Source: Emydura subglobosa (lineage: Eukaryota > Chordata > Testudines > Chelidae). From it: a stretch of 64,000 nt of DNA. The stretch is taken from the NCBI GenBank assembly GCA_007922225.1, contig ML679960.1:7728844-7792843 (forward strand). Direction: 5' to 3'. The notes below the pieces were generated by a model. That model had not been told where the DNA came from, did not search any database, and was given only the letters and a program-made list of their open reading frames with translations. This document shows, one piece after another, positions 791 through 58,599 of this stretch (within the stretch, counting starts at the first letter, position 1; the number at the start of each line of letters is the position of its first letter). Position numbers and translations under genes: made by a program.

Positions 791-1128
791 AGCTCTGGGA
801 CACTGCACGAGGTTAGGCCCCCATCTTTCCTGACAGAAGCGTTATCGGTGGGTTTTTGCCATGACACTGAAGGTGACTGCCCATAATCTCCACCACATTA
901 TGATGGTTGGCATTTGTTGGAAGAGTATTCTAGTGGCTGGGGCAGGGGGGAATCAGTTCCTCTTAAATGCAGAGGGGGGTTAGTATGAGAACCTGGGCCC
1001 TCCCACTCCACCGGGTCACCAAAGGCCACTCAAGAGCACTTTGTGGCTGCGCTCCTTCGGCCACTTCTTACCACCCACTCTATAGTCCAAGCTTTGCAGT
1101 CTGAAGCAAGAGTTACTGAAGAAAAGGT

Positions 1129-1266
1129 GAAAAATTCCAGAGCGGTAGCCGTGTTAGTCTGTATACAGCAAAAACAACTCAAATCCTGTAGCACCTTAAA
1201 GATTAACAAATTTCTGCAGGCATAAGCTTTCGTGGGCTGCAACCCACTTCATCAGACTCTTTTTTT
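1129..1266 (-). mobile_element. Short hammerhead-bearing unit, probably Penelope-derived
   Basis: A 138-bp block is flanked by a 12-bp direct repeat, tgaagaaaaggt, at 1117-1128 and 1267-1278, so it was inserted into older sequence. On the minus strand it begins with an A-run, then a hammerhead-like fold (1220-1259), then a body ending in ctaacacggctacc. Blocks of this sequence are very common in turtle and crocodilian genomes. The fold has the same layout as the one at the end of the Penelope-like element at 43244-43283, which is why I assign it to that group. Two open frames across it are chance. Confidence 0.6.
1220..1259 (-). ncRNA. Hammerhead-ribozyme-like motif (probably inactive copy)
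   Basis: Minus strand: CTGATGA (1255-1249), one extra A, stem II GTGGG/CCCAC with a six-base loop, GAAA (1231-1228), GCTT, then ATGC (1223-1220). These are the conserved CUGANGA and GAAA boxes of a hammerhead around a perfect stem II. Stem I is weak: GAGT opposite ATGC has one Watson-Crick pair, one wobble, one mismatch and one pair. The self-complementary AGCT after GAA would give a very short stem III. Confidence 0.5.
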
Positions 1267-41599: not shown

Positions 41600-41915
41600 T
41601 ATCTTTCATTTACTCTCCCAAATATTCGACAAGAACAATGAGGACTTACTCCTGATTTACCCAGGAATCTTTTCAATTTTCTGAAATGTAATTCACTATC
41701 AAGGTAACTTAATCCCACATTCAGATAGCCATGCTTCTCCTTCCCCCTTTGAATTTTTAAAACATGGCCTTTAGACAGTATGTGTAATTCTAGTAGATTG
41801 GTGAGGCATGATTTCCCTTTACAAACCCCATGTTTACTCTTCCCCAACAAATCGTTTTCATCTGTGTCTGATAATTCTGTTCTTTACTACAGTTTCAACC
41901 AATTTGCCACAGAAC
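41600..41915 (-). mobile_element. CR1 fragment, minus strand
   Basis: Plus-strand reading ggtgaggcatgatttccctt, then ccccatgtttactcttcccc and gtttcaaccaatttgcca, is the complement of an upstream CR1 segment I recognise from reptile CR1 elements. It stops abruptly where Penelope-type sequence begins. Confidence 0.6.
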
Positions 41916-42493
41916 CAGGAACCACCCTAGACATAACAAGAAATTTGTTATCTACAGGTAAGTACTAAGACACCACAGCATATACTCCAGGGAGAAAGTT
42001 CAGGATATGCACCTTAACGCACTTAAAACTGCCTTCACCAAACAAGGACACTCCACCAGAGAAGTAGATTGCATCATGGAAGGGGCCACCCTAATTCCCC
42101 AAGACAACTTGCTTTAATACAGGGGGGAAAAAGAACTCTAAAAAAACAATGATTGCATATCCCTAGTTGTCACCTACCACACTCATACAAGTTGTCACTG
42201 GAACCCACACAAGATATCAAACAATTATTATAACCTATACTTGATGGGAACCATATCCTGAAAGAAATCTTTCCTGAGCCCCCTCTTTTGGCCTTCAAAC
42301 CACCCCCCTCACCAAGTTCATCATTAGAAGCAAGCTCCTCACACCAGAACCCACTAACTCAAAGCAGTATCGAACCATAAGAGCAGTTGCAAAACTTGCA
42401 GACATAGCTTCACTCCTACAATGATCAATACCACTCCACACAACACTGCAACACACCTTTCAAAATCCATGCATCTTACTCATGTCTATCACA

Positions 42494-42828
42494 ACATGTG
42501 GTGTAGTATACCTCATTCAGTGCATCAAACGTCCCCCCAACAATTATGTGGGTGAAACAAGGCAATCACTACGCTTTCGAATGAACTCACAGAAAAATGA
42601 CAAAAGACAAAAACATCTTATCATCTGTGGGTGAACACTTTTCACAGAACCATCATTCCATATCTGACCTCTCAATCCTTATCCTAACAGGAAACCTGCA
42701 GAACCCTTTCAAAAGGCAAGCCTGGGAACTTAAATTCATAACTCTGCTAGACACCAAAAATCATGGACACAATAGAAACACTCATAAAACACTGGTTTTA
42801 TGTCTCATTACAACAATCTGTAATCCAC
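42494..42828 (+). pseudogene. GIY-YIG endonuclease domain of the Penelope-like element
   Basis: Starts CGVVYLIQCIK (the GIY position, here GVV-Y) and continues NNYVGETRQSLRFRMNS (the YIG position, YVG). A frame change near 42587-42596 leads to MTKDKNILSSVGEHFSQN and then FKRQAWELKFITLLDTKNHG, which carries the conserved Glu region. This nuclease nicks target DNA to prime reverse transcription in Penelope elements. Frameshifts make it inactive. Confidence 0.8.
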
Positions 42829-42831
42829 TAA

Positions 42832-43106
42832 GGCCTTGTCTACACTAGCTGGCAAAATTTTTGGCGCTCAGTGGTGTGAAAAAAAAATACTCCCCTGAAC
42901 ACCAAATGTTTTGCTGGCATAAGCACTTGTGTGGATAGTGCAGTGTCTCCTGCCGACATAGCTACCACCCCTCATTTAGGTGGTTTTATTATGTTGGTGG
43001 GAAAGCTGTCTTCTGCCAACATAACACGGCTACAGAAGCGCTTTTACAGCGGCACAGCTGTACTGATACAGCTATGCTGTAGTAAGTTTTAAATGTAGAC
43101 TAGCCC
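42832..43106. mobile_element. Foldback DNA transposon family B, nested in the Penelope-like element
   Basis: Left end ggccttgtctacact; the reverse complement of the right end is gggctagtctacatt. Both flanks are TAA (42829-42831 and 43107-43109), a 3-bp target duplication of the TWA type used by PIF/Harbinger elements. Penelope sequence resumes directly after it (ctctcctttgtcctatgact). Confidence 0.7.
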
Positions 43107-43243
43107 TAACTCTCCTTTGTCCTATGACTGCAGAGGTGTTAATTACCCACTTCATTTTGAATGGTTTCTTACATGTGTTAATTCTGTATGCCTAGCAATC
43201 CGTTCCACCCTGTATTTAGCTGTAACACTCTGATACCTTCCCC

Positions 43244-43283
43244 AGACCTGAGGAAGAGCTCTGTGAAGCTTGAAAGCTTGTCT
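43244..43283 (+). ncRNA. Minimal hammerhead-ribozyme-like motif with intact core
   Basis: Stem I AGAC (43244-43247) pairs with GTCT (43280-43283). Between them lie CTGAGGA (43248-43254, fits CUGANGA), one extra A, stem II GAGCT (43256-43260) with AGCTT (43267-43271, one G-U pair), GAAA (43272-43275) and GCTT. AGCT after GAA is self-complementary, as in minimal hammerheads that need two molecules to form stem III; cleavage would fall after 43279. Penelope elements are known to carry such ribozymes. The extra A before stem II is unusual. Confidence 0.55.
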
Positions 43284-43969
43284 CTTTCACCAACAGAAGT
43301 TGGTCCTATAGAAGATATTACGTCACCCACCATGTGTCTCATTAAAAAAATTAATCAAATATTCAAAGAAAATAGTTTGCTGTATTCCACATATTCTCAA
43401 CACTATTCTTTGGTGTTCTGGACTTACTGGGCCTGATTCTCCATTGTTCTGATCTTGGTGCAGTGATTTACATGTGAGTATTAAAACGCTGCTTTGGTAG
43501 CATTTTTGACCCACTGTGCACTCAGTTTGCACAGGGATATATGACTACACAAGAAGCAGGACAAGGTTTTGCATGCATACTAATAAAATGTACAATGTAG
43601 ACTCTACATAAGATTTTAAATTAAATGGGAACTAGACTATCTGAGATTTTTTCTATGGCTTTATAAAAATCCCTGTGTTAACAAAGCAGAAAATAAAGTA
43701 TAATTTTCACTCTTAGTTTATTAAAAATGTCTAGGATTAGATGTTCCCAAATCTCCCCATAAGACTAGCTCTCATTATTACTTCAGATCAGGTTAGCTTT
43801 GTGCACCTCACTTGTTCATATAAAGAAAGGGATATCCACCTTGTGAGGATACCAGAAAAGCCACTATTCATTTAGTATTTTTACACAATATATTGTGGGA
43901 GATGGGAACAGATGTTTCATCCTTATTTCACCTGATGGCAAGACAGCGAGAAAAACCACAGCAATATCA

Positions 43970-44240
43970 AACTGGGAGGGAAAAAAAAGAAAGAGAAAAG
44001 GAGCTAGAGAAGAAAACAAGATAAGAATGAGAAGAAAGAAAAAACAGAATGGGGAGAAAGAAGAGAAAATGGACAGAGAAGAATACAGACAAAGAGAAAG
44101 AGAGCAATAAAAAGATAAAAAAAAATAGGCACCACTTCTTGAAAAATGAGTAAAAAAGAAGCGAAAGAGAATAAGAACAACATAAAAGGAGGAAATACAA
44201 AAAGAAATAGAATGAAAATATGCACAGAAAAAATAATAAA
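43970..44240. repeat. Purine-rich (GA) tract
   Basis: About 270 bp of almost uninterrupted A and G on the plus strand. It explains the long hydrophobic open frames on the minus strand (43864-44345), which are poly-Phe/Leu/Ser and not genes. Confidence 0.9.
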
Positions 44241-55788: not shown

Positions 55789-58599
55789 AAGACAAAAGAC
55801 ACATAAGTGATATTGCCTTGCCAAATATTGGAACCAATTACTTGAAGTCTATGGCTCTTTGCAGGATCTAGCACAAAATGTAATTTATATGTTCAACACG
55901 AAGAGCCATAAGTTTTCCTTCTACCAAAAACAACTCAGAAGAGGAGAGAACTTAGTCAAAAGTATCCGCAGCTTAAAAGGTCAGTTTTGCAGCAACATCG
56001 CACTATCAGAGCAGGATGAATGCTGCTGTTGTGTATGTCATCCAAATGTCAAGCCAAGAATCTGCAAGTAAAACTGCCAAAACCTTGCAGATTTCTGGCC
56101 ATACAATGGACACGTCATTACCAACACACAGCTCTGGGCTTTCTGCCATGTAGAGGAAGCATACAGTAGCTGACTTCCTTGTCAAAAGACTATTATAAAC
56201 CATAAACCACCCGTAGTTACTTCTGTTTAGCCTCTCTGACAGGATGACTAGTATAGGTTAATACCATTATGAGTAATGCCTGTTCAGAATTAAGTTGAAT
56301 GAAAAAATCAGCCAGCTCTATGATACTTTTCAAAGGCAATTTAGCCTGTTTCCTTAATCACAGCTCCGTATAAATGACCATACAGTATTTAAGAAGTTAG
56401 ATATGAGAATGCAACCAATGCTTTTGATGGTCTGTCTAGGGTAGCTGATAGGAACACAGCTTCCTAAAAAGGCACAAGTAGGTGCAAGCACTGGCACTTC
56501 TAGCTACAATTAACAAGACAAGTTCACTATGCTGTATGTAATATGAGGACTCTACTGATCGCACATGTGTAGGTATGAATCTTGCCAAGTAAACAACACT
56601 TCACAGTGTGGCTTGTACAAGATTATAATTTTGTATTTGTACAGCTCCTTTAACCCAAAGGATCCCAAAGTACTTTAGAAACTCAACACCTGTTTATACA
56701 AACTGTACAAAGAAATCATCCACTGCAGCCATCTTGGGGGGTGAAATGCAAGAGCAGTGTAACATTGCATAACATTTCTACACAATACCTTAGGACGGGA
56801 AGGTGAGAAACAACTGTCAAAACAGGGAGAATTATAGAAGGCTGAGTACAACATGGGTGATTTGGAACAGAGGTGGGACACTAAAATTAGCACCACTATT
56901 CTGGGTTAGAATACCTGCAAATGGTTAGCATTATGATTTTACACTTCACCTGAAGGATGGTGTTTCTAGTAGCACAGCACCCACCACTGTTCAATACCAT
57001 TCATGGTTCTGCAGTACTAACAAAGTGCAACTTACTAAATCATAAACACTCTACTTCTTACAGCCCCCTAAAAAAAGATCTAATTATTTGTTTTTCTTTG
57101 GAAGCCTCCCATCCAAGTACAGTATTAGTCAAACCCTGCTTCAGTATTAGGTATGTTTACATATCTTCTGGGTCATCTTTATTATGTTTCTAGTACAAAG
57201 TACCCGGTACTCTCCAAACAGTAGGAAGGGATGATCACTTCCCTGAGAAGCTGACAATATAAAAACTGAAACACACACAAGCATATGGCGGTGTAGGGAA
57301 GAAGAGAGCAACACATACTGTTATGTTAAACACACACACACACAACTAAAATAGGACAAGTAAATTACATACAAATTACCCCTTAAACTTGGCATTGCCT
57401 ATCACCATAACAGATATCTGAATTAAGTCCTGAGAGTCGTGTAATTTTGTAATGAGCTCATGCTGTGGGTTGGAGTATGGACGATGAATCTCACCTTTAC
57501 AATGGTATTTATTACACATTGTTACTGTATCTGCAAGATGTTATACAGCACTTTTCAAATCTCATGTTTTCTGCACATCTTACAGATGAAATTGCTTTTG
57601 CTTTGACTATCCCTTTGCAAACTAGTGAGCAACTCACCAAGTATTTTTCAGAAAAACAAACCTGTCAATAAAAATGCCACGATTTGTTGAAAAACAAACA
57701 CAGGATTTTTAAAATTCTCTTTCCCCCATCACCACTATGTTCCATGTGCTGTGTTCTGCTTGATTTTATTTAGTGGTCCATAAAATACCGAAGAACACTG
57801 CACTCTTCTCTGGAGCACTGCCCAATATTCAGCGGGCAGTCAAATATAAAGACCTAGATCCCCTGAAGGGAGTTGGCATTTATTGACTACATAAAAAGAA
57901 TATTTTTGTCCATGTTTCATGAATGAGTTTTTTGAAATTTGAAAAGAAATTCATGAGTCAGTTGGGTGGGAGTGAAAATAACTAGTAAATGAGCTTATTT
58001 CAATAAGAATAGATTCATTATATAGTTTGCCAGCTTCAGGGAGCTTCCATCATGAAACCCTTGAGTGGAAATGCAGGAAGTAATAGTAACTAAACAATTC
58101 ATGTTTTCAATTTCTTAACCCCTCTTTCCCTCAGCCACATGTGCATCAACTTGATAACAAATCAAATACAGCATTCATGAATCTAACTCAAACTATACAG
58201 ACAAGTTCCATTGTAACTTTTGATTCACTAGTGTTAATGGAATTGTGTAGCTAAATCCCCATGTTATTTTGAAAATAAAACCTGAAGAGAAGTTATGGCA
58301 TCTTCTCCAAAGAATGCTTGTTCCTCATATAGAGCAATATTAAAATAAAATGTTACCCTTGATACCTATCGAAAGGATAATTTTTTCTGCTATCGTGCAT
58401 GGTCAATGCTATGTTAAAAATTGTTTGCCTCTTATTTTAGGCACCAATTCAGGAAAGCATTCTTATTCAGGACAACATCCATAATGTGCTTCAGAGCTGC
58501 CTTGAATAGGGAGGTTTAAGTGCTTCCTCAAAGTAGGGCCCAAAATATCCAATTTTGCAGTTGGCATGGAACTATCAAGTCTAATGCTCTGTATAGTTG
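55789..58599. other. Unassigned intronic sequence with small repeats
   Basis: No gene seen. At about 56630-56700, cagctcctttaacccaaagg and atcccaaagtactttagaaa resemble an ancient SINE end. (CA)n lies at 57331-57345. Confidence 0.45.

Follow-up and report, generated by a model that had tools for sequence, protein, structure and literature searches.

Penelope-like elements (PLEs) are described as carrying minimal hammerhead ribozymes, which number in the thousands across many animal genomes (PMC7761336). In those parts of the literature on which we draw, stem III is absent from such hammerheads, which may cleave in dimeric form (PMC7761336, PMC6155905), and double hammerheads are said to form only where the stem III loop is palindromic and, in eukaryotes, the copies stand in tandem (PMC6466107). 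For the PLE of an anole, the sections of PMC11167929 used here report that the ribozyme cut only upon addition of the PLE protein, that ribozyme mutants still inserted, that no reads began or ended at the cut site, and that insertion in vitro proceeded from unprocessed RNA; the same authors had earlier seen PLE hammerheads self-cut at 3-25 mM magnesium. Excerpts from PMC3846280 and PMC11167929 list 5' truncation, inverted pLTR pieces, and an optional tail of 30-40 bp as PLE traits, the tail being ascribed to two RT start sites (PMC11167929). The role of the PLE hammerheads was termed a mystery in a 2020 review, as far as the portion consulted goes (PMC7761336).

We analyzed a 64,000-nucleotide stretch of Emydura subglobosa DNA (the window) and found support for the view that a PLE in it carries a minimal type I hammerhead at its 3' end (Table 1). 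The plus strand at 43244-43283 reads AGAC-CUGAGGA-A-GAGCU-(CUGUGA)-AGCUU-GAA-AGCU-U^GUCU, with the parts in the order of a type I hammerhead; all those named in the original prediction (CUGANGA, a 5-bp stem II, GAAA, AGCT, and AGAC/GUCU) are present at these positions and in that order. The conserved core CUGANGA ... GAA is accompanied by A15.1, U16.1, and H17, every catalytic letter is intact, and all 9 stem pairs are able to form. Stem III is missing in cis and is replaced by the palindrome AGCU, which is nearly constant in both PLE families described below, and the motif lies in the pLTR of an RT/GIY-YIG element. When both strands were scanned, the strict arrangement of the motif occurred at this single site in the window, and no convincing second hammerhead that could serve as a tandem partner was found on the same strand within the window. 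A covariance model whose 72 rows include the window copy and its relatives scored this copy at 60 bits (E 2.2e-12). A third match of that model in the window, at 58278, has an E value of 0.89 and looks like chance. The kind is already known: minimal hammerheads with a palindrome in place of stem III are as published for PLEs in the parts of PMC6155905, PMC7761336, and PMC6466107 available to us, the original prediction having pointed to minimal Penelope hammerheads with too short a stem III, and the window copy is a good example rather than a new thing.

Table 1. Coordinates of the two hammerhead loci and their host elements in the window
Feature	Position	Strand	Basis or remark
Stem I, 5' strand, AGAC	43244-43247	+	Sequence; between-family covariation
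Catalytic core CUGANGA, here CUGAGGA	43248-43254	+	Sequence, family copies
Extra A, position 9.1, before stem II	43255	+	Family trait
Stem II, GAGCU (43256-43260) / AGCUU (43267-43271), 5 pairs, loop CUGUGA	43256-43271	+	Closing pair G-U
GAA (43272-43274), self-complementary AGCU (43275-43278) replacing stem III, U17 (43279)	43272-43279	+	Sequence
Stem I, 3' strand, GUCU	43280-43283	+	Sequence
Predicted cut	between 43279 and 43280	+	From hammerhead numbering
Possible hairpin ACCAAC-AGAA-GUUGGU, directly 3' of the ribozyme	43289-43304	+	Common to family copies; sequence and alignment by eye
PLE ORF, 3' part (after the RT core, GIY-YIG endonuclease), 5'-truncated, frame-broken	41908-42831	+	DNA homology to other copies
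Later insertion splitting the PLE copy, MITE-like	42832-43105		Possible TIRs GGCCTTGTCTACAC.. / ..GTAGACTAGCCC and possible TAA duplication, by eye
Remaining PLE 3' UTR and 3' pLTR, ending ...CCACCATGTGTCTC, no-tail class	43106-43340	+	Alignment with 39 copies
Fragment of second PLE family	1129-1266	-	Own hammerhead at 1220-1259
12-bp target duplication ACCTTTTCTTCA flanking the second-family fragment	1267-1278 and 1117-1128	-	Sequence

The original prediction had placed the motif at the end of a PLE, just after a GIY-YIG nuclease. The host is indeed a PLE, truncated and with its frame broken, and the motif is located in its 3' pLTR; a GIY-YIG fragment (42425-42631) is found upstream, and about 275 bp of other DNA (42832-43105) stand between that fragment and the ribozyme. 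Among the 39 other copies compared, 11 have no upstream match, and a gap of such length is absent in all 28 that match both sides. The window copy has stops in all three frames. Its GIY-YIG fragment shows similarity to the endonuclease (EN) part of RT/GIY-YIG proteins (at best 56% over 34 aa, E 5.6e-7), as judged against 120 proteins that the RT-to-EN part of another copy, L057, had retrieved. That part of L057 has 187 homologous proteins at E <= 0.001, and by our own count of precomputed Pfam annotations 19 of the 120 listed carry both RVT_1 and GIY-YIG. A Pfam scan of four homologues returned RVT_1 with GIY-YIG in one (RVT_1 below the curated cut-off), RVT_1 alone in two, and GIY-YIG alone in one. 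One ORF with RT and GIY-YIG is found among the homologues, and the window copy keeps only its broken 3' part. Pfam gave a single weak match, to RVT_1 (E 0.011), for a set of four short pieces, of which three came from L057 and one from the window, and the PDB search yielded nothing beyond two matches at E 0.64, both for one L057 piece. For the copy at 41908-43340, a search for target duplications of at least 10 bases came back empty. We assign the element to the PLEs because of the GIY-YIG fragment, the 5' truncation, the adjacent inverted pLTR pieces, and the optional tail. Downstream of it, at about 43935-44190, runs a long purine-rich (GA-rich) tract.

The source genome (1.93 Gb) contains 39 further copies of this family (family 1) at 80-84% identity; 40 copies including that of the window were scored out of 3,084 first-look candidates, and the 39 were fetched and aligned. 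By our own reading of their 3' ends, 14 of the 39 continue into a tail, 24 extend no further than the end of the pLTR, and one (L017) is intermediate, a pattern that agrees with the optional tail of 30-40 bp.

The fragment on the minus strand near the start of the window represents a second family (family 2), with 39 other scored copies at 89-94% identity; a blastn comparison of this fragment with 43107-43400 gave nothing better than E 7.7. The 5' strand of stem I in its hammerhead pairs poorly and seems to be flanking DNA, and an A-rich stretch, AAAAAAAGAG, lies between the target duplication and the ribozyme. Five family 2 copies were fetched with upstream DNA. One (L129) has a frame that matches PLE proteins from after the RT core through GIY-YIG and ends about 160 bases before the ribozyme; in L133 the endonuclease part occupies the corresponding position, in L131 a piece of this kind is inverted, and the upstream DNA of L130 and L132 shows no PLE reading-frame piece. 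The endonuclease pieces of the window and of L129 share 43-45% protein identity, and a family 2 reading frame shares 77% identity over 137 aa with a protein of the side-necked turtle Emydura macquarii.

A genome-wide search with the core pattern CTGANGAAGN{8,16}CGAAAGCTT gave 5,922 matches, against 0 for the reversed pattern, and the patterns of both families had 0 matches in viral contigs. Among 42 ribozymes, stem II takes the forms GUGGG/CCCAC, GUGAG/CUCAC, GAGAG/CUCUC, and GAGCU/GGCUC, with GAGAU/AUCUC once, and stem I is mainly GCAU/AUGC or AGAC/GUCU. Two hammerheads in the same orientation occur at L058 and at L164; those of L164 are complete, in tandem on one strand, and 45 bases apart, making this locus a candidate for a natural cis-dimer. 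At L158 and L160, two hammerheads stand head to head in inverted pLTR pairs. Several family 2 copies have inverted pLTR junctions near the 5' edge of the ribozyme, where the stem I strand AUGCAU is itself palindromic.

The expectation of covariation within one family was rejected: dead copies drift one by one, so only the comparison between families is informative. Between PLE families, covariation in stems I and II, which the original prediction had proposed as a check, is seen in two alignments. The first (A1) holds 72 sequences, 65 of them distinct, from two families; family 1 copies had to agree with the locator at 29 places or more over their best 40 bases, which excluded eight, and at loci with two copies the better-matching stretch was used, whichever copy it came from. 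In A1, 91.8% of cells pair versus 67.2% in shuffles, and the covariation score of 0.640 (shuffled, 0.263) was reached by none of 500 shuffles; two weaker measures were reached by 30 and 90 of the 500. Changes on both sides occur at 3 of 4 stem I pairs and at all 5 stem II pairs; two of the stem II pairs owe this to a single sequence each.

The second alignment (A2) was sampled from 40 regions picked partly for diversity from the listed pattern matches, all on contig C1, with one locus (L152) dropped. Its 39 rows comprise the 33 ribozymes of standard length among the 42, nine with other loop lengths being left out, and six others. Here 92.6% of cells pair versus 72.8% in shuffles, and the score is 0.527 versus 0.195, a value that none of 500 shuffles reached and that sliding the partners destroys; two of the five measures are not above shuffles, which reached them 406 and 481 times in 500. 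Both sides change at 6 of 9 pairs (3 of 4 in stem I and 3 of 5 in stem II). The core and the pair that closes stem II are prescribed by the search pattern, so that only the other pairs count as evidence. When stem I partners were swapped among the 42 ribozymes, 31 true combinations had at least 4 pairs, compared with a mean of 25.2 and a maximum of 32 in 1,000 swaps, an excess that is small because most copies share one stem I. Judged from these alignments, the covariation supports stems I and II, through many copies and few independent events.

The core, the extra A, and AGCU hardly vary between families, although in A2 they are partly pattern-selected. The extra A had been flagged as a deviation from the textbook core. 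It is indeed present and departs from that core, but it is no defect of the window copy: 37 of 40 family 1 copies have it, as do at least 90% of the A1 sequences and all 39 A2 rows, 33 of which were pattern-selected for it.

We consider it highly likely that this hammerhead belongs to the 3' pLTR of an ancient, now defunct PLE, that its ancestors would have cut as pairs of RNAs, and that the window copy is now most likely inert. The motif and its relatives, the location within a PLE, and the stem changes between families are observed directly; the dimer mode, any help from protein, and cutting itself would follow by analogy with the published elements. In live ancestors, two RNA copies, within a tandem transcript or as two molecules, would have paired via their AGCU stretches, and this pairing would have supplied the missing stem III and formed two back-to-back active sites cutting 3' of U17. 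Such cutting may have needed the PLE protein, as in the anole element. The window copy seems to have drifted neutrally since its insertion and most likely does nothing now.

Nearest-neighbor folding, which is blind to tertiary contacts and protein, puts the hammerhead fold of the window RNA at -7.8 kcal/mol versus -9.8 for its best fold, with a probability of ∼10% for the hammerhead stems. These stems fare no better (0.09) in a family 1 copy that retains the C before G12 (L162) and reach probabilities of 0.85 and 0.93 in a family 2 copy (L089). The predicted MFE dimer of the window RNA is not a hammerhead dimer.

One alternative gives the ribozyme a part in transposition: it would have trimmed the template in life, with new copies beginning at the cut site. 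The near full-length copy L057, which begins ∼3 nt before that site, speaks for this, but the wider samples of both families do not bear out L057 as proof of ribozyme-made 5' ends, and we reject it as such. In family 2, 38 of the 39 other scored copies match from the first base of the query, one matches from the third, and none begins at the cut; the query started 5 bases before the cut, so that a copy beginning there would lose 5 matches, a slight bias against such copies. Among 50 mapped family 2 copies, 39 of which came from a query favoring long copies, 24 extend more than 20 bases upstream of C3 and 26 begin between -20 and +20, with no boundary between +21 and +37 (the cut is at +32). 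At 30 family 1 loci, 10 of the 5' ends lie more than 20 bases upstream, 4 at -9 to +4, and 8 at +54 to +64; 5 loci, among them L057 and L073, begin at other downstream points, and 3 (L076, L080, and L084) have no scorable 5' part. Only 2 of the 30 begin within 5 nt of the cut, L057 (+29), which is the query copy itself, and L073 (+37). The ends at 54 to 64 bases after C3 (L071, L074, L075, L079, L083, L085, L087, and L088) cluster at CCAATAAAAGATATTACC. In the family 1 and family 2 samples, the 5' ends of inserted copies are not set by the ribozyme cut; together with the insertion of anole ribozyme mutants, reported in the part of PMC11167929 drawn on here, this makes template trimming very improbable.

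A ribozyme still active, or with a host role, at the window locus is very improbable, even though its catalytic letters are intact and 9 of 9 stem pairs are possible. The ribozyme is not more conserved than its flanks among copies: mean identity to the plurality across the 40 family 1 copies is 0.901 for the ribozyme, 0.915 for the flanks, and 0.920 for the catalytic positions, and the core is intact in 13 of the 40 (window included). The original prediction of an intact core holds for the core letters; stem II is weakened, since a U rather than a C precedes G12 and closes the stem in a G-U pair. At the dinucleotide formed by G12 and its preceding base, the 40 copies have TG in 18 cases, CA in 15, CG in 4, and TA in 2, with a gap in 1, a pattern resembling that of a CpG that has decayed on one strand or the other. 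By these counts, the ancestor very probably had CG at this place, and the window copy lost the C, leaving the G-U pair, and kept GAAA. The G-U pair, a competing hairpin, and the want of a convincing same-strand partner in the window all speak against activity, and the window copy looks like a neutral fossil.

That the motif is a chance match within an unrelated repeat is hardly conceivable, for although Rfam gives no match and the window RNA prefers another fold, the strict arrangement occurred in 0 of 400 simulated windows (first-order Markov, 64 kb each; the looser motif, with any stem III accepted, matched 8 times across the same 400), and a second family, with endonuclease pieces of 43-45% protein identity, has the same architecture with other, still-pairing stems; the covariation between families contradicts a chance match.

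The 5,922 core-pattern matches in several stem classes make the question of the role of PLE hammerheads countable, in terms of pairs kept, copies intact, and agreement of inserted ends with the cut site. As in the anole work, the ends of the inserted copies argue against trimming of the template. We tentatively suggest, as a possibility short of an even chance, that several PLE families in one genome keep the ribozyme by compensatory change while inserts rarely begin at the cut, that its role would then be other than shaping the 5' end of the template (e.g., a role after insertion, or in the destruction or separation of tandem mRNAs), and that the extra A would be a constant feature defining a hammerhead subclass of its own.

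Rfam release 15 recognized none of the loci submitted to it as a hammerhead: neither the two window copies nor 20 related loci matched a hammerhead family at E <= 10, so that the covariance-model search proposed in the original prediction came back negative for the Rfam hammerheads, and the locus falls outside canonical Rfam membership. Matches below the gathering score were mostly to microRNA families on inverted pLTR pairs (L146, L089, L158, and L160), probably because long hairpins tend to give them. A weak hairpin-ribozyme match beside the second window copy, likewise below the gathering score, was set aside. A literature search, which stopped short of Cervera 2014 and Lunse 2017, turned up no report on Penelope-like hammerheads of turtles.

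Compared with the canonical type I hammerhead of Rfam, the window motif has the same core letters and order of parts and differs in lacking stem III in cis, in its extra A, and in the absence of an Rfam match. Metazoan retrozymes also carry type I hammerheads and, according to the part of PMC7229834 consulted, include vertebrate members with a weak stem III that cut better as dimers, which we count as a likeness; retrozymes are, however, small nonautonomous repeats, whereas here what is left of a PLE reading frame precedes the ribozyme. The anole Poseidon element PAc, by its description in the portion of PMC11167929 used, combines a hammerhead in a PLE with an optional tail, as here; its start codon lies at stem II, whereas the six family 1 copies examined showed no clear frame crossing the ribozyme into the ORF. 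Among the closest are the minimal PLE hammerheads (Cervera and de la Pena 2014; Lunse, Weinberg and Breaker 2017), likened here via parts of PMC7761336, PMC6155905, and PMC6466107, with which the window copy shares the type I core, the lack of a usable stem III, the palindrome in its place, and the location in a pLTR.
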